NCBI RefSeq assembly: GCF_001815935.1
Contig: NZ_KV823453.1
Coordinates: 1 to 64,000 of the forward strand
Length of the DNA stretch: 64,000 nucleotides
DNA from: Corynebacterium sp. HMSC04H06
Lineage (GTDB): Bacteria; Actinomycetota; Actinomycetes; Mycobacteriales; Mycobacteriaceae
Direction of reading: 5' to 3'
Part shown: positions 48,306-54,972 of the stretch, in pieces
How the letters are laid out: the number at the start of each line of letters is the position of its first letter
How positions within the stretch are numbered: the stretch's first letter is position 1
Program-made: the position numbers and the translations under genes
Notes under the pieces: model-generated
Databases searched by the model: none
What the model was told of the DNA's origin: nothing
Seen by the model: only the letters and a program-made list of their open reading frames with translations

Positions 48306-48962
48306 CTAGAGCATCGCGAAGCCGATGATGACCAGGATGGCGGCCACCACGTAGCTGCCGACCTTGCTGACGGTCTCCTTGTTTTCTCGGGCCTGGGCGA
48401 AAAGCCGCCCGGCCGCCGAGTTGGGTTTGCGCCGCACGAGCCCAACGAAGACCGCCACCGCGATGGGCAGCGAGAGAGCGAAGGTCGCGTAGAGGAAAAG
48501 CCCGCCGTAGCGGATGCCCACGCTGTAGTCCCCGGCGGCCAGGTAGATGAGCCCGGCAAAGAAGGCACCGGAGGTGATGGACTGGGCCACACCCAGGATG
48601 AAACCGGTCAAAAACGTCAGCGGGCTGGGCGTTTGCAGGGGCCGCAGGAGCTTGCTCACCATCTCGTTGGACTCTCCCCCGCGGTGGCGCCAGGTCATGA
48701 CCGCCGCGGCCAGGCCCAGCACGATGAGCAGCACGCCCAGGATAGGGGTGTCCAGGAAACCCTCGACGTAGGCCTTGAGCTGGTCCAGCACGAACATGGT
48801 CACCACCGAGAGGGCGAAGACCCCGAACCAGTCGCCGAAGATCAAAAGCGGCACGATCCGGCGGTACTTGCCGCGCTCAAGCATCACGCCCAGCGCCGTG
48901 ACCACGCCAATCAGCAGAGCATTGACGGAGTCTAGGAAGGCGAAACTAGCGGCGTGCAGCAT
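48306..48962 (-). CDS. Six-helix membrane protein, LysE/GAP-like
   Basis: A 218-residue integral membrane protein with six hydrophobic segments and a central cytoplasmic loop (WRHRGGESNEMVSKLLRP). Size and topology recall the LysE-type exporters and the mycobacterial GAP/Sap proteins that help lipid export, but no decisive motif is visible. The ATG at 48962 begins the first helix; upstream frame to 49127 is excluded because it is polar and overlaps the promoter of the divergent MMPL gene. Being divergent from a lipid exporter gene is suggestive but not proof of a shared role. Confidence 0.6.
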   Translation of the reverse strand: MLHAASFAFLDSVNALLIGVVTALGVMLERGKYRRIVPLLIFGDWFGVFALSVVTMFVLDQLKAYVEGFLDTPILGVLLIVLGLAAAVMTWRHRGGESNEMVSKLLRPLQTPSPLTFLTGFILGVAQSITSGAFFAGLIYLAAGDYSVGIRYGGLFLYATFALSLPIAVAVFVGLVRRKPNSAAGRLFAQARENKETVSKVGSYVVAAILVIIGFAML

Positions 48963-49219
48963 GGGCGCAATCTTACCGCTTAAGTCTTTCAACGCCCGAA
49001 GTGCACCCAAGTTGCACACTCTCTGCAGGTTTGCGTACACTATGCAATGTTTCCGAGGGTGTGCACGTTTCTGCACGTGTCCCCGGAATCCTTCTTTCAT
49101 TTCCTCCACTCCCCAGCGCCTAGGCAACGTCCGCGGCGGGAAGCGGACCGACGTCTAACTTTTGTTTCCAACCATTGTTCTTTTGACCATTCTTCTAAGC
49201 GAAAAAGAAAGTACGCTTT
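48963..49219. promoter_or_regulatory. Divergent promoter region with candidate TetR operator
   Basis: A candidate rightward promoter is TTGCAC (49012-49017), an 18-base spacer and TACACT (49036-49041). The imperfect palindrome TTGCGTACACTATGCAA (49031-49047) overlaps the -10 element. A second inverted repeat, GTGCA-N6-TGCAC, lies at 49061-49076. This arrangement fits repression by the TetR protein encoded after the MMPL gene. The link is inferred from position. Confidence 0.5.
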
Positions 49220-51853
49220 ATGTCTAAATACCTCTACCGGCTGGGCAGTTGGTCGTACCGGAAGGTCTGGCCTTTCCTGGCCTTCTGGCTCGTGCTGCTG
49301 GTCGCCATGGGCGGCTTGGCCGCGGGTTTTGCTAAAGACCCGAACCCGAACTTCTCCATGCCGGACATGGACTCCACCGTCACCCAAGACAAGATGAACG
49401 AGCGCTTCGGCAACGATTCGGATGCCATGAGCGAGCCCACCGCCAACGTGGTCATCCAGGCACCGGAGGGCAAGACCTTAGACGACCCGGCCCTGATGGG
49501 CGAGGTCGATGGGCTCATCGACGATCTCAAGGGCACCGACGCCCTGACCGACACGGACCAGCTGGTCAACCCGGTAATGGCCGCCGGCGGCATGCAGAAG
49601 CAGATGGGCGAGCAGATGGCCGCCCAGGGCATGCCGCAGCAGCAGATCCAGTCCAACCTCAAGGTCTTGTCCCCGCTGAGCGAGGACAAGACCACCGGCA
49701 CTCTGTCCATCACCTTTGATGCGCCGGAGGTCATGGAGATCGACGAGGGCGAGCGCGACGCGGTCACCGACGTCATCGATGACTACGACTCCGGCGACCT
49801 GACCGCCAAATACAACGGCAACGCCTTCTCCGCCGCAGGCGAAGAGATGAACATGACCGCTGAGCTCATCGGTATGGCCGTGGCCGCTGTCGTGCTGCTG
49901 ATTACCTTCGGCTCCTTCGTCGCCGCCGGCATGCCGCTCATCTCCGCGGTCATCGGCGTCGGCGTGGGCCTGCTGGGGGTCCAGCTGGGCACCATCTTTA
50001 CCGACACCATCTCAGATATGACCCCGATGCTGGCCTCCATGATCGGCTTGGCCGTGGGCATCGACTATGCCCTATTCATTGTCAACCGCTACCGCAACGA
50101 GCTCATCACCTCTTCCGGGCTGAACAACCTGAGTCCGAAGGAACTGGCCCAAGAGCTCAAAAAGATGGGTAAGAAGACCCGCGCCCACGCCATGGGCATG
50201 GCGCTGGGCACCGCGGGCTCCTCCGTGGTCTTCGCCGGCACTACCGTGGTGATCGCGCTGGCGGCGCTGACCATGATCGGCATCCCCTTCCTGGGCACCA
50301 TGGCTATCGCCGCCGCGGCTACCGTGGCCGTCGCCGTGCTGGTCGCCCTGACCTTCATCCCGGCCCTGCTGGGACTGCTGGGCACCAAGATCTTCGCCGG
50401 CCGCGCGCCGGGGCCGAAGGTCCCGGACCCGGAGGACGAAAAGCCCACCATGGGCCTGAAGTGGGTCCGCCAGATCCGCGCACGCCCGGTTACCAACCTG
50501 GTCGCCGGCATTGTCATACTGGGTATTCTGGCCATCCCGGCCGCCAACCTGTCCCTGGCCATGCCGACCGACGGCACCGCCAAAGTGGGCAGCCCGCAGC
50601 GCGATGCCTACGAGATCACCGCCGACGCCTTCGGCGAGGGCCGCAACGCCCCGATGGTGGCCTACGTCGACGTCGCGGGCGTGAACGAGCAGGAGCGGAT
50701 GCCAGCCTTCCAGCAGCTGCTGGCCGACTTCAACGACACCGAGGGCGTCGAAAACGCCCAGATCATCCAGACGACGGACAACATGTACGCCGCCCAGGTG
50801 CTTATCACCCCGACCACGGGGGCTACCGATGAGACCACCACGGACACCCTGAACGCGCTGCGCTCCTACCAGTCCGACTTCACTGAGGAAACCGGCGGCG
50901 AATACGGCATCACCGGCGTCACCCCGATCTTCGACGACATCTCGGAGCAACTCACGGATATCCTCATCCCGTACATCGCCGTGGTCCTGGCCCTGGCGTT
51001 CATCGTCCTGCTGCTGGTATTCCGTTCCATCTGGGTCCCGCTCATCGCCGCGCTTGGCTTCGCGGGTTCCATGGCCGCCGCCTTCGGCATCACCGTAGCC
51101 GTCTTCCAGGAGGGCCGTTTCGGCATCATCGACGATCCGCAGCCGCTGCTGTCCTTCCTACCGATCATGCTCATCGGCCTGACCTTCGGGCTGGCCATGG
51201 ACTACCAGGTCTTCCTGGTCACCCGCATGCGCGAGGGCTACGTCCACGGCAAGACCGCGGGGAACGCGACCTCCAACGGCTTCAAGCACGGCGCCCGCGT
51301 GGTCACCGCGGCCGCGATCATCATGATTTCGGTCTTCGCCGCCTTCATGCTCATGGACAAGCAGTTCATCAAGACCATGGGCTTCGCCCTGGCCATCGGC
51401 GTGGCTATCGATGCCTTCGTGGTCCGCATGACCATTATCCCGGCCACTATGTTCCTGCTGGGCGACAAGGCTTGGTGGATCCCCAAGTGGCTGGACAAGG
51501 TCCTGCCGAACATGGACATCGAGGGCGAGGCGCTTTCCGCCAACCGCGAGGCTTTGATGAATGGCGGCGATCCCGACCAGGTCCGCACCCCGGCTGCCGG
51601 CACCGCCGATGCAGGCGCGGAGAAGCACCGCGACACCTACGCGAACTTCCACCCGGAGCACGGCGGCTATGCTGCCCACGTGCAGGCGGCCCGGCGCGCC
51701 GGCGTTTACGCCGAGTCCGGCCCGGCCACCCCGGCGCGCGGGGGCGATGCTAACGACGCCGAAACTGGCGCCCGGGTGCAGCAAGGAGATAACCTTTCGG
51801 GCAAGGGATCCTGGTGGACCAAGGTCAAGAAGGCATTTACTGGCAATGAGTAA
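49220..51853 (+). CDS. MMPL family transporter
   Basis: An 877-residue RND-type membrane protein with two repeats of the MMPL layout: helix 1, a periplasmic domain (about 40-205), five helices; then helix 7, a second periplasmic domain (about 425-575) and five helices. The proton-relay Asp-Tyr pairs are present in GLAVGIDYALFIVNRYR and GLAMDYQVFLVTRMREGY. The cytoplasmic C-terminal tail has about 140 residues. MMPL proteins move lipids such as trehalose monomycolate across the membrane in mycolata. Substrate cannot be assigned; MmpL3-type TMM transport is only one option. Its last bases overlap the next TetR gene. Confidence 0.9.
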   Translation: MSKYLYRLGSWSYRKVWPFLAFWLVLLVAMGGLAAGFAKDPNPNFSMPDMDSTVTQDKMNERFGNDSDAMSEPTANVVIQAPEGKTLDDPALMGEVDGLIDDLKGTDALTDTDQLVNPVMAAGGMQKQMGEQMAAQGMPQQQIQSNLKVLSPLSEDKTTGTLSITFDAPEVMEIDEGERDAVTDVIDDYDSGDLTAKYNGNAFSAAGEEMNMTAELIGMAVAAVVLLITFGSFVAAGMPLISAVIGVGVGLLGVQLGTIFTDTISDMTPMLASMIGLAVGIDYALFIVNRYRNELITSSGLNNLSPKELAQELKKMGKKTRAHAMGMALGTAGSSVVFAGTTVVIALAALTMIGIPFLGTMAIAAAATVAVAVLVALTFIPALLGLLGTKIFAGRAPGPKVPDPEDEKPTMGLKWVRQIRARPVTNLVAGIVILGILAIPAANLSLAMPTDGTAKVGSPQRDAYEITADAFGEGRNAPMVAYVDVAGVNEQERMPAFQQLLADFNDTEGVENAQIIQTTDNMYAAQVLITPTTGATDETTTDTLNALRSYQSDFTEETGGEYGITGVTPIFDDISEQLTDILIPYIAVVLALAFIVLLLVFRSIWVPLIAALGFAGSMAAAFGITVAVFQEGRFGIIDDPQPLLSFLPIMLIGLTFGLAMDYQVFLVTRMREGYVHGKTAGNATSNGFKHGARVVTAAAIIMISVFAAFMLMDKQFIKTMGFALAIGVAIDAFVVRMTIIPATMFLLGDKAWWIPKWLDKVLPNMDIEGEALSANREALMNGGDPDQVRTPAAGTADAGAEKHRDTYANFHPEHGGYAAHVQAARRAGVYAESGPATPARGGDANDAETGARVQQGDNLSGKGSWWTKVKKAFTGNE

Positions 51854-52436
51854 TCTCCGAGAAACGAAAAAGCGCGCTACCCGGCAGGCGATAGCGGATG
51901 CGGCTGGCCGCATCTACCTATCCGAGGGCGCGGAGGCGCTCACGGTTTCTCACGTGGCTGAGCAGGCAGGCGTATCCGCCCGCACCTTCCACAATTATTA
52001 CTCCAGTCTGAACGAATGCTTGGCTCAGTTCGCACTTGGTGCAGTCAGCTCGATTGCCGAGAAGGTAGACGAATACCCAGCACAAGCAACCACGACGGAG
52101 ATCTTCGAAGACATCGTCTGTAAGGGATACCGTACCGCCGAACCGGAGCTGCACTCCGTGGCTTCGTTGTCGATGGTGATGGACTACCTGGATAAGTCAT
52201 GTTTCTCCGGCGTCAATCGCGACGACGCCAAGCGCGTGGCAGAGCAAGTCTCGGAAGCGTTTTCCCGGCACAGCCCTGGGCGGGACGCGTTCGACACCGA
52301 GGTGGTTCTCCACGCCTGCGCCGCGGTGAGTGCGTCGGCAAGCAAGGCTTTCTTCGCACTGCCTGAGCCGCGCGACCCAGAGGTGGGTGAGCAGATGGTC
52401 CGGCGGGCCTTTGCCACGCTTCGCTCGATAGTCTAG
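51846..52436 (+). CDS. TetR family regulator of the MMPL operon
   Basis: A 196-residue regulator. The N-terminal helix-turn-helix covers about residues 8-54 (TVSHVAEQAGVSARTFHNYY). The rest is an all-helical ligand-binding domain with no recognised ligand signature. The ATG at 51846 overlaps the end of the MMPL gene by 8 bases, so both come from one message. By analogy with other exporter-TetR pairs it probably represses its own operon; palindromes near 49031 and 49061 are candidate sites. GC content is slightly lower than in the MMPL gene. Confidence 0.88.
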   Translation: MSNLRETKKRATRQAIADAAGRIYLSEGAEALTVSHVAEQAGVSARTFHNYYSSLNECLAQFALGAVSSIAEKVDEYPAQATTTEIFEDIVCKGYRTAEPELHSVASLSMVMDYLDKSCFSGVNRDDAKRVAEQVSEAFSRHSPGRDAFDTEVVLHACAAVSASASKAFFALPEPRDPEVGEQMVRRAFATLRSIV

Positions 52437-52513
52437 GCGGACTACTCCCCGAAGAATCCAGGTATTGCCTCTTAGTGCCCGGCCCGCTGGGCAGCAAATG
52501 TTCACTGAAGGTT

Positions 52514-52550
52514 TACCCTGATTCAGCGCCTTACGCGTCGGATCAGGGTA
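52514..52550. repeat. Inverted repeat upstream of the sulfolipid-type gene pair
   Basis: TACCCTGAT (52514-52522) and ATCAGGGTA (52542-52550) form a perfect 9-bp inverted repeat with a 19-base loop, followed by AAATTTCATTT. It lies between the TetR gene and sqdB. It could be a terminator or an operator; a related element is at 56921. Confidence 0.65.
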
Positions 52551-52615
52551 AAATTTCATTTCTAGACCTTTTAAGGCTCTTCCTATTCTCGATCTTTTTA
52601 TTGGAGCATCACACA

Positions 52616-53809
52616 GTGAAGGTAGCCATTCTGGGCGGGGACGGATTCTGCGGTTGGCCCGCAGCCCTCTACCTGTCCGACCAGGGCCACGACGTGCACA
52701 TCGTTGACAACCTCTCCCGGCGCGCCATTGACGCCGAGCTCGAAGCCGAATCGCTCACCCCGATCCGCAGCATCGACGAGCGGTTGGAGGCCTGGAAGGA
52801 AGTCTCCGGCAAGACCATCGGCTTCCACCGCATCGACGTGGCCCACGACTACGCAGCACTGCTGGAGTTCATCAACACCGAGCACCCAGACGCCGTGGTC
52901 CACTTTGCCGAGCAGCGCGCCGCGCCGTATTCGATGAAGTCCTCACGGACCAAGCGCTACACGGTGGACAACAACATCAATGCCACGCACAACCTGCTGG
53001 CTGCGGTGGTCGAGTCCGGCCAGGACATCCACGTCGCCCACCTGGGCACCATGGGGGTCTACGGCTACGGCACCGCCGGCATGGAGATCCCGGAAGGCTA
53101 CCTGGACGTCAAGGTAGAGGTCCCGGGCTCCGAGCCGGTCGAGCAGTCCATCCTCTACCCGTCCAACCCGGGCTCGGTCTACCACATGACCAAGGTGCTG
53201 GACCAGCATCTTTTCGCCTACTACGCGAAGAATGACGAGCTGCGCATTACCGATCTCCACCAGGGCATCATCTGGGGCACGCACACCGAGCAGACTCGTC
53301 GGGACGAGCGGCTGATTAACCGCTTCGACTACGACGGCGACTACGGCACCGTGCTCAACCGATTCTTGGTCCAGGCCGGCGTCGGCTACCCCCTGACAAT
53401 CCACGGCACCGGCGGACAGACCCGAGCGTTCATCCACATCCGCGATATGGTCCGCTGCATTGAGCTGGCCCTGAACAATCCGCCGCAGCGGGGCGAGCGA
53501 GTCAAGATCATCAACCAGATGACCGAGACCCACCGCGTGCGCGACCTGGCGGAGCTGGTCGCGAAGTTCTCCGGCGCGCAGGTCGCCTACGTGCCGAACC
53601 CACGCAAGGAGTCCGCCGAGAACGAGCTGCACGTATCAAACGACACCTTCCTGCGTTTGGGCCTTGAGCCCACCACCCTGTCCGAGGGGCTGCTGCAGGA
53701 GGTCGAGGACGTCGCGCGCAAGTACTGCGACCGGGTGGATCGCTCCAAGATCCCGGCGCGTTCCCTGTGGACCGCCCAGCAGTCCGCCGGCGTTCCTGAG
53801 AACGAATAG
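52616..53809 (+). CDS. sqdB: UDP-sulfoquinovose synthase-like NAD-dependent enzyme
   Basis: A 397-residue extended SDR that closely resembles SQD1/SqdB, which converts UDP-glucose and sulfite to UDP-sulfoquinovose. The distinctive start ILGGDGFCGWPAALYLS (GGDGFCGW at 7-14) and the motif EQRAAPYSM match that family rather than ordinary epimerases. The catalytic triad is Thr145 (HLGTMGVYG), Tyr189 and Lys193 (SVYHMTK). Further family features are DLHQGIIWGTHTEQT and FDYDGDYGTVLNRFLVQAGV. The GTG at 52616 has GGAG 9 bases upstream. A SqdX-like glycosyltransferase follows after 14 bases, the expected partner. Confidence 0.82.
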   Translation: MKVAILGGDGFCGWPAALYLSDQGHDVHIVDNLSRRAIDAELEAESLTPIRSIDERLEAWKEVSGKTIGFHRIDVAHDYAALLEFINTEHPDAVVHFAEQRAAPYSMKSSRTKRYTVDNNINATHNLLAAVVESGQDIHVAHLGTMGVYGYGTAGMEIPEGYLDVKVEVPGSEPVEQSILYPSNPGSVYHMTKVLDQHLFAYYAKNDELRITDLHQGIIWGTHTEQTRRDERLINRFDYDGDYGTVLNRFLVQAGVGYPLTIHGTGGQTRAFIHIRDMVRCIELALNNPPQRGERVKIINQMTETHRVRDLAELVAKFSGAQVAYVPNPRKESAENELHVSNDTFLRLGLEPTTLSEGLLQEVEDVARKYCDRVDRSKIPARSLWTAQQSAGVPENE

Positions 53810-53823
53810 GGCAGGCAGCTACC

Positions 53824-54972
53824 GTGCGCGTTGCTATCTTCACGGAAGTCTTCCTGCCCAAAATCGACGGGGTCGTCACCCGGCTGACCCACACCTTGCG
53901 GCAGCTGCACGCCGCCGGGCACGAGGTCTTAGTATTCGCCCCCGGTAACCCGCCAGCCGCCTACGCCGGCTTCGAGGTCGTCTCCATCCCCTCGCTGTCC
54001 CTGTGGCCGGTCTACCCCGAGCTGAAATGGGGCCTGCCGGATCCGCGAGTGCTGCTTCGGCTGCGGCGTTTCGACGCCGACGTCGTGCACGTGGTCAACC
54101 CGATTTGGACCGCGGCGCTGGGTGTGTGGGCGGCGCACCGCGAGGCCCTGCCCCTGGTGGGTAGTTTCCACACGAACCTGCCGGAATACGTAGATGCCTT
54201 AGGCATCGGCTGGGTCCGGCCCGCCACGGAGGCGGCGTTGCGCTACCTGCACAACCAGGCGGTAGAAAACCTCTGTACCTCAGACCCCATGGTCGAGCGC
54301 GCCCAAGAACTGGGCATCAACAACGTCTCGCTGTGGCCCAAGGCGGTGGACACGGACAACTACTACCCGCGCCGCTACAGCGAGGACATGCGCTCCCGGC
54401 TAACGGGCGGGCACCCCGAAGCCCCGCTGGTTACCTACGTGGGGCGCGTGTCCAAGGAAAAGGACTTGGACCGCCTGCCCGGCATCATGGCGCGTGTCCG
54501 CGAGTGCGTGCCCGGCGCGCGCCTGGCGGTGGTCGGCGCCGGCCCGTACTCCGGGCAGCTGGCGAAGCAGTTCGGCCCCGACGAGGCGGTCTTTACCGGT
54601 TACCTCTCCGGCGACGAACTGGCCGCGGCCTTCGCCTGCGGCGACGTCTTCTGCTTCCCCTCCCGGACCGAGACCCTGGGCCTGGTGGCCCTGGAGTCCT
54701 TCGCCTCCGGCGTGCCGGTGGTCGGTACCCGCGCGGGCGGAATCCCTTTCGTTATCGACGACGAGAAGACCGGCCTGCTGGTCGACGAGGACGCCTCCGA
54801 CAGCGCGTGGGCCGAGGCCCTGGCGGGATTGCTAGGCGATGCCGACCGCCGCGCCGCCATGGGTGAGGCCGCGCGCGCCGAGGCCGAGCGGTGGTCCTGG
54901 GAGGCGGCGACCCGCTCCCTCGTTGAGACCTACCAGCGGGCCATCGACGGCCCGCTCTACCGCCTCGCTTAG
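53824..54972 (+). CDS. sqdX: SqdX/MgtA-like GT4 glycosyltransferase
   Basis: A 382-residue GT4 (GT-B fold) transferase. The opening VAIFTEVFLPKIDGVVTRLT and the acceptor-side SFHTNLPEYVDALGIGW are shared by SqdX (sulfoquinovosyl to diacylglycerol) and by mycobacterial/corynebacterial MgtA and PimB' mannosyltransferases. The donor site has VTYVGRVSKEKDLDRL and the EX7E motif in SRTETLGLVALESF near residue 280. Sequence alone cannot separate SqdX from MgtA; the SqdB-like gene 14 bases upstream favours SqdX. It would act at the cytoplasmic face of the membrane. The GTG at 53824 has a weak ribosome-binding site. Confidence 0.7.
   Translation: MRVAIFTEVFLPKIDGVVTRLTHTLRQLHAAGHEVLVFAPGNPPAAYAGFEVVSIPSLSLWPVYPELKWGLPDPRVLLRLRRFDADVVHVVNPIWTAALGVWAAHREALPLVGSFHTNLPEYVDALGIGWVRPATEAALRYLHNQAVENLCTSDPMVERAQELGINNVSLWPKAVDTDNYYPRRYSEDMRSRLTGGHPEAPLVTYVGRVSKEKDLDRLPGIMARVRECVPGARLAVVGAGPYSGQLAKQFGPDEAVFTGYLSGDELAAAFACGDVFCFPSRTETLGLVALESFASGVPVVGTRAGGIPFVIDDEKTGLLVDEDASDSAWAEALAGLLGDADRRAAMGEAARAEAERWSWEAATRSLVETYQRAIDGPLYRLA

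Follow-up and report, generated by a model that had tools for sequence, protein, structure and literature searches.

The sulfur-containing membrane lipid sulfoquinovosyl diacylglycerol (SQDG) is chiefly familiar from photosynthetic membranes; the genus Corynebacterium has many skin and mucosal residents. Here, in a 64,000-nucleotide (nt) stretch of contig NZ_KV823453.1 from Corynebacterium sp. HMSC04H06 (the window), we describe a locus of two plus-strand open reading frames (ORFs), sqdB and a family 4 glycosyltransferase (GT4) gene, that very probably forms a two-gene operon, built like those of picocyanobacteria, for the synthesis of a sulfoquinovosyl glycerolipid (SQDG). On sequence grounds the ORF at 52616–53809 is the UDP-sulfoquinovose synthase SqdB. 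Our comparisons establish to which enzyme family each gene belongs and that the two are strictly paired; from these families we infer the catalysis, the use of diacylglycerol as acceptor, the anomer, the source of the sulfite and the role of the lipid in the cell. The most likely interpretation is a known pathway in an unexpected genus. If this is true, many Corynebacterium species would make a sulfonated, anionic glycolipid that commonly serves as a chloroplast or cyanobacterial marker; a 2024 review (PMC11278827) lists SQDG and SQMG in that capacity. A literature search on Corynebacterium with SQDG or sulfoquinovose, covering titles and the starts of abstracts and with most subscription journals outside its reach, returned no report.

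The genes and the likely translation signal of the first are as follows.

52616..53809, plus strand: sqdB, UDP-sulfoquinovose synthase, an NAD-dependent short-chain dehydrogenase/reductase (SDR); 397 amino acids, GTG start at 52616, stop at 53807–53809
53824..54972, plus strand: sqdX-like GT4 gene, proposed sulfoquinovosyl-diacylglycerol synthase; 382 amino acids, GTG start at 53824, stop ending at 54972
52603..52606, plus strand: likely ribosome-binding site of sqdB, GGAG, from sequence

In the proposed pathway, SqdB would bind NAD+ and UDP-glucose, oxidize C4, eliminate the C6 hydroxyl to give a 4-keto-5,6-ene and add sulfite, drawn from the sulfate-assimilation route of the cell, at C6 to yield UDP-sulfoquinovose. 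The GT4 (SqdX) would then transfer α-sulfoquinovose from this donor onto diacylglycerol on the inner side of the plasma membrane. The lipid so formed would be anionic and free of phosphorus and could substitute for phosphatidylglycerol.

SqdB and its pairing with a GT4 gene

We sampled 201 Corynebacterium genomes; at E 1e-60, 71 of them, that of the window included, have sqdB, and the same 71 carry the GT4 gene, in every case directly downstream on the same contig and strand, with 5–104 nt (median 17) between the matches. None of the 201 genomes had the two genes apart at the thresholds used. An earlier note on this DNA had proposed a sulfolipid gene pair in this Corynebacterium; the pair is present, but it is not peculiar to the strain, and the 14-nt spacer between the genes given there lies at 53810–53823. 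Some GT4 match at 1e-30 occurs in 188 of the 201 genomes. In-frame stops and cut or split matches are seen in some carriers (for example, G009, G027, G060, G077 and G093), so a few copies may be decaying or badly assembled. One carrier holds a second, partial SqdB match (G142:C1:1975697-1976200; residues 1–168, 79%).

The best solved-structure relative of the window protein is Arabidopsis SQD1 (E ~1e-97, residues 2–385), with all other solved families at E 1e-10 or weaker; this match, together with the retention of the pair in 71 of 201 genomes, excludes a chance similarity. The GGDGFCGW start on which the earlier note had based an SQD1-type assignment occupies residues 7–14, and the Thr145/Tyr189/Lys193 triad that it named aligns with SQD1 Thr145, Tyr182 and Lys186. 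Of that assignment the SqdB identity stands and the closeness to plant SQD1 does not, the sub-family being alphaproteobacterial and picocyanobacterial. Ten residues of Sulfolobus Agl3 have been mutated, with inactive alanine mutants at His95, Arg101, Met145, Tyr182 and Lys186, as described in PMC4388408; nine of the ten are kept in window SqdB, including all five of the latter (H96, R101, M146, Y189 and K193), and the tenth, Glu147, is replaced by Val, which S. meliloti also has. A quick SqdB tree (129 rows, 11 near-copies dropped) puts the window protein in a Corynebacterium/Citricoccus clade with a Shimodaira–Hasegawa-like approximate likelihood ratio (SH-aLRT) support of 97. It falls among UDP-sulfoquinovose synthases, well away from GalE-related enzymes, and the clustering with non-sulfoquinovose epimerases that the earlier note had raised against itself did not appear.

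Close relatives lie on plasmids. At E 1e-40, 22 plasmid records matched SqdB: nine from Sinorhizobium and the Roseobacter group at 67–70% identity, pSymB of Sinorhizobium meliloti included, and a further 13 made up of one from Rhodococcus (61%), eight at 42–45% and four haloarchaeal records at 31–34%. The pSymB protein (68.9% identity, 97% covered), whose record names it only epimerase/dehydratase, is presumably the product of S. meliloti sqdB, a characterized gene. More widely, a public-genome scan with the motif GGDG[FY]CGW gave at least 120 sqdB loci in many phyla, with an SqdB ORF in 111 of 120.

The 129-row alignment behind these comparisons (rows of at least about 330 residues, including 8 of the 30 loci L008–L037, 3 of the 29 loci L038–L066 and 9 of the 30 loci L073–L102) separates two sub-families, a Glu type with GEYG and a Val type with GVYG; window SqdB is of the Val type, as are its neighbours in the tree. 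The Glu type comprises Arabidopsis and, among the matches listed, 16 of 37 cyanobacterial, 12 of 12 Bacillota and 3 of 3 Acidobacteriota rows, along with all nine actinobacterial rows from an Actinomycetota genome sample. The Val type takes in S. meliloti and all 11 corynebacterial rows and, again among the matches listed, all 27 Pseudomonadota rows, the other 21 of the 37 cyanobacterial rows and 16 of the 17 actinobacterial rows that the motif scan gave. Both S. meliloti and picocyanobacteria make SQDG. The mechanism of the Val type may differ from that of Agl3, in which the Glu matters.

A GT4 gene follows Val-type sqdB in 18 of 21 cyanobacterial, 6 of 16 actinobacterial and 0 of 27 Pseudomonadota rows among the matches listed, where the rows counted as lacking it include loci whose sequence ends too soon. 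Given these counts and the family 8 glycosyltransferase (GT8) that partners SqdB in S. meliloti, the Corynebacterium operon appears picocyanobacterial rather than alphaproteobacterial in make-up. An SqdB-like match at E 1e-70 was found in 100 of 396 sampled Actinomycetota genomes, none of them over the NCBIfam cut-off, and in none of the 14 genomes listed from other genera of the window's family. That actinobacteria as such have SqdB is already known: the 2015 tree in PMC4388408 includes entries from Mycobacterium vanbaalenii and Propionibacterium freudenreichii.

The GT4 gene and its relation to SqdX and MgtA

The second protein scores over the cut-offs of PF00534 and PF13439, and its predicted model (mean predicted local distance difference test score 91.2) matches GT4 structures, the best at Z 36.9 and a root mean squared deviation of 2.9 over 359 aligned residues. 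The window genome has six GT4 matches, this one included. The closest paralog, 32–34% identical, is an MgtA ortholog (L003) on another contig between menD and menG, both named from their translations; a place beside menD is typical of MgtA, a GDP-mannose:glucuronic acid-diacylglycerol mannosyltransferase. The remaining four are MshA (670 bits; cut-off 462.5), a GlgA-type enzyme, PimB′ (474 bits to 3oka) and a putative PimA.

Compared with the 32% shared with its own MgtA, window GT4 is 42–49% identical to the GT4 proteins that adjoin cyanobacterial sqdB, among the matches listed. Such a neighbour is its sole match at E 1e-20 in three of four cyanobacterial genomes (G611, G612 and G616), while the fourth, Cyanobium G617, has a second GT4 match at 33%; in PMC7401256, the consecutive Synechococcus elongatus PCC 7942 tags Synpcc7942_0578 and Synpcc7942_0579 are sqdB and sqdX. 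Profiles built here score the window protein at 417 bits for SqdX and 238 bits for MgtA, a difference of 179 bits. Six positions preselected for separating the SqdX clade (Asp15, Thr19, Arg20, Asn92, Asn149 and Thr152) carry these residues in 34 or more of the 36 clade rows and in no more than one of the 18 outgroup rows; Arg20 and Thr19 are each present in 35 of the 36, with outgroup counts of 0 and 1, respectively. In the predicted model both stand at the start of helix 16–30, which follows the first strand, and we suggest that Arg20 may read the sulfonate. In a first comparison of 35 positions, window GT4 agreed with SqdX at 23, with MgtA at 5 and with neither at 7, which we do not take as proof because many of these are general GT4 residues lost in MgtA. 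No relative of window GT4 was found in the plasmid collection at E 1e-50.

A quick tree on a distant paralog root (9 of the 29 loci L038–L066; neighbours with at least about 300 aligned residues) left the deep order of the GT4 proteins unresolved. In a 52-row tree, assembled from 47 of 79 earlier rows and five new ones so as to add lower-ranked GT4 proteins as closer outgroups, the corynebacterial sequences join sqdB-linked GT4 proteins of cyanobacteria, Bacillota, Acidobacteriota, Chloroflexota and Rubrobacter with support of 100/97. Also in this clade are a divergent GT4 from Curtobacterium and a second one from Alicyclobacillus that is not known to adjoin sqdB. MgtA stands apart with a Citricoccus relative (100/100), and a grouping of the corynebacterial proteins with MgtA is rejected by the approximately unbiased (AU) test (p-AU 0.0019). 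The earlier note had hesitated between SqdX and MgtA; the better-rooted tree comes down for SqdX, and the firm clustering with MgtA that would have spoken against the note did not occur. We reject an MgtA identity for window GT4, as it is L003 that has the menD-mgtA-menG neighbourhood and the place in the MgtA clade, and likewise a PimB′ identity, PimB′ being a separate gene in the genome; the rejection carries the reservation that an earlier AU test, given below, left the MgtA grouping standing.

Two relatives outside Corynebacterium merit mention. Citricoccus sp. CH26A (L162) has an sqdB–GT4 pair 75% and 60% identical to that of the window, with its GT4 nested in the Corynebacterium clade (95/86), which may reflect transfer between families or a mis-assigned contig. 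Curtobacterium ammoniigenes (L135) has a Val-type SqdB and, downstream, a very divergent GT4 in which Arg20 and Thr19 are retained; this may be a related transferase that uses a different acceptor.

Contrary evidence and alternative readings

Several observations weigh against an SQDG operon. Agl3 Glu147 corresponds to Val148 in window SqdB, although the adjacent Tyr (Agl3 Tyr148) is kept; a change of the Glu seems tolerable, since Agl3 E147A retained 12.4% activity (PMC4388408). The NCBIfam model NF041015 scores window SqdB at 345 bits against a cut-off of 575, a threshold too narrow to define the family because just one of the two matching controls (Synechococcus elongatus and Sulfolobus acidocaldarius, out of 14) exceeds it. 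For the second gene, the SqdX reference rows were named by their position beside sqdB and not from a characterized sequence, and a careful tree with PimB′ as sole, distant outgroup (14 of 79 rows dropped) left the question undecided, the grouping with MgtA not being rejected (p-AU 0.244). The 52-row tree was itself rooted on L126 and L189, sqdB-adjacent GT4 proteins of Pseudomonadota whose exclusion from SqdX was assumed; as these adjoin sqdB and yet reach just 183 and 181 bits against the SqdX profile, a position beside sqdB is not enough to identify a GT4 as SqdX. The Corynebacterium/Citricoccus proteins branch deeply as a clade of their own next to the reference SqdX rows, and they may therefore use a different acceptor or sugar. 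Of the 130 genomes without sqdB, G160 has the best GT4 match (199 bits); this protein (G160:C13:67522-68658) is 40% identical to window GT4, compared with the usual 33–36% of MgtA. As for substrates, the window genome has two neighbouring matches to PF01507 (the family of adenylylsulfate and phosphoadenylylsulfate reductases and sulfate adenylyltransferase subunits), matches to PF01077 (sulfite/nitrite reductase type) and a GalU-like hit that does not reach the cut-off of its model. A supply of sulfite and UDP-glucose is plausible on this showing, but the models are unspecific, with PF01507 and GalU matching 14 of 14 controls and PF01077 matching 11 of 14.

The alternative that best survives, although we consider it unlikely, is that SqdB makes UDP-sulfoquinovose and the GT4 uses another acceptor (glucuronic acid-diacylglycerol or another glycolipid, a phosphatidylinositol mannoside, a trehalose mycolate or a wall glycan) to produce a sulfonated glycoconjugate other than SQDG. 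The separate clade of the corynebacterial GT4 would fit such a product, as would the different partners of SqdB on a Rhodococcus qingshengii plasmid (a weakly BcsB-like protein and a family 2 glycosyltransferase, GT2) and in S. meliloti; set against this are the residues that window GT4 shares with the SqdX clade and a gene order matching that of Prochlorococcus and Synechococcus, with no further operon gene needed. It is highly improbable that the GT4 is an MgtA-type (or PimB′-like) mannosyltransferase standing beside sqdB by accident: MgtA is its closest paralog in the genome and the first AU test left that grouping standing, but a separate MgtA exists, the profile difference and the later AU test favour SqdX, and the gene accompanies sqdB in 71 of 71 carriers. 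That the SDR makes a different nucleotide sugar, as an epimerase or decarboxylase type without any sulfosugar, is likewise highly improbable, for the Val in place of Glu147 and the low NCBIfam score are countered by the presence of the same Val in S. meliloti and picocyanobacteria, which make SQDG, and by the grouping of the protein with SqdB.

Transcription unit, neighbours and known systems

Around the pair lie the following features.

52512..52552, plus strand: hairpin between tetR and sqdB, an 11-bp perfect inverted repeat, TTTACCCTGAT...ATCAGGGTAAA, from sequence and folding
51846..52436, plus strand: TetR-family regulator gene, overlapping the end of the MMPL gene
49220..51853, plus strand: MMPL-family transporter gene, upstream of sqdB and outside the proposed pathway
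48309..49010, minus strand: gene for a Sap-like membrane protein that may be a partner (PF11139, 28 bits, below the 35-bit cut-off)

The segment 52505–52565 has a folding energy of −29.2 kcal/mol (z −7.16 relative to 200 shuffled sequences), and this very stable hairpin probably ends the upstream mmpL–tetR unit or else is a regulator site. Its presence between tetR and sqdB points to a separate transcription unit beginning at sqdB, and because a convergent 3-hydroxyisobutyryl-CoA-hydrolase-like gene lies downstream of the GT4 gene, this unit probably consists of sqdB and the GT4 gene alone. A promoter scan of the locus found no sigma-70-like site, and a terminator scan found one site against 1.5 expected, the tetR–sqdB hairpin being absent from its list. 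Judged by eye, certain relatives carry a hairpin in this position too, with a different sequence.

In M. tuberculosis, Sap and MmpL8 serve sulfolipid-1. That about a third of Corynebacterium species export a sulfoquinovosyl lipid through the Sap-like protein, and sometimes MMPL, as a surface sulfolipid is a long shot, and the same small chance attaches to a functional parallel with sulfolipid-1 export, the chemistry of which would be unrelated. Among the 71 carriers, the Sap-like gene lies no more than 10 kb from sqdB in 31 and farther away or on another contig in 30, the remaining 10 having no coordinates listed or no match; in some it adjoins the pair, on either side (L270–L282 and L286). 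As it is present in 173 of 201 Corynebacterium genomes, carriers or not, it is not specific to the pair, and seven of the eight such proteins scanned from corynebacteria, including that of the window, fall below the Pfam cut-off. A Sap-like profile search of other sqdB loci returned Corynebacterium proteins only; it cannot show absence, having missed the PF11139 protein that is encoded close to sqdB on a Rhodococcus plasmid (L068:3182-3838) and, at 84.7 bits, exceeds the cut-off. We reject a general functional link of the MMPL/TetR pair to the operon, MMPL being upstream in 8 of 20 relatives compared.

That Rhodococcus qingshengii plasmid (NZ_CP054208.1, L068:6001-10998) encodes an SqdB 61% identical to that of the window, followed by the BcsB-like protein (19 bits, under a cut-off of 21) and GT2, with a SulP transporter upstream; the locus perhaps makes a sulfonated polysaccharide rather than a lipid. 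Paenibacillus sanguinis (L185) has an sqdB–GT4 pair, with which a report of SQDG by exact mass in Paenibacillus polymyxa (PMC6878767, which also lists lipids unexpected in bacteria) fits, although we make no use of it, as the species is another. Rhodobacter sphaeroides sqdBDC, with an SqdB that is probably of the window sub-family, belongs to a route of four enzymes, SqdB, A, C and D, according to PMC11346425. The S. meliloti pSymB region shares the SqdB sub-family (69%), but its partner is a GT8 (PF01501); a search of the window genome with this SqdD-like protein, which lacked a positive control, gave no match. Arabidopsis, in which the GT4 SQD2 performs the second step, shares the SQD1 family and its catalytic triad with the window, SQD1 being of the Glu and window SqdB of the Val type. 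Corynebacterium MgtA resembles window GT4 in its GT4 family, presumed lipid acceptor and 32–34% identity but is a separate gene in a different clade. Closest in design are the sqdB–sqdX loci of Prochlorococcus, Synechococcus and Cyanobium, which have the same two adjacent genes in the same order, with Val-type SqdB about 65–68% and GT4 45–49% identical among the matches listed; they differ in belonging to photosynthetic organisms, whereas the window host is a non-photosynthetic actinobacterium whose GT4 lies in a separate clade.

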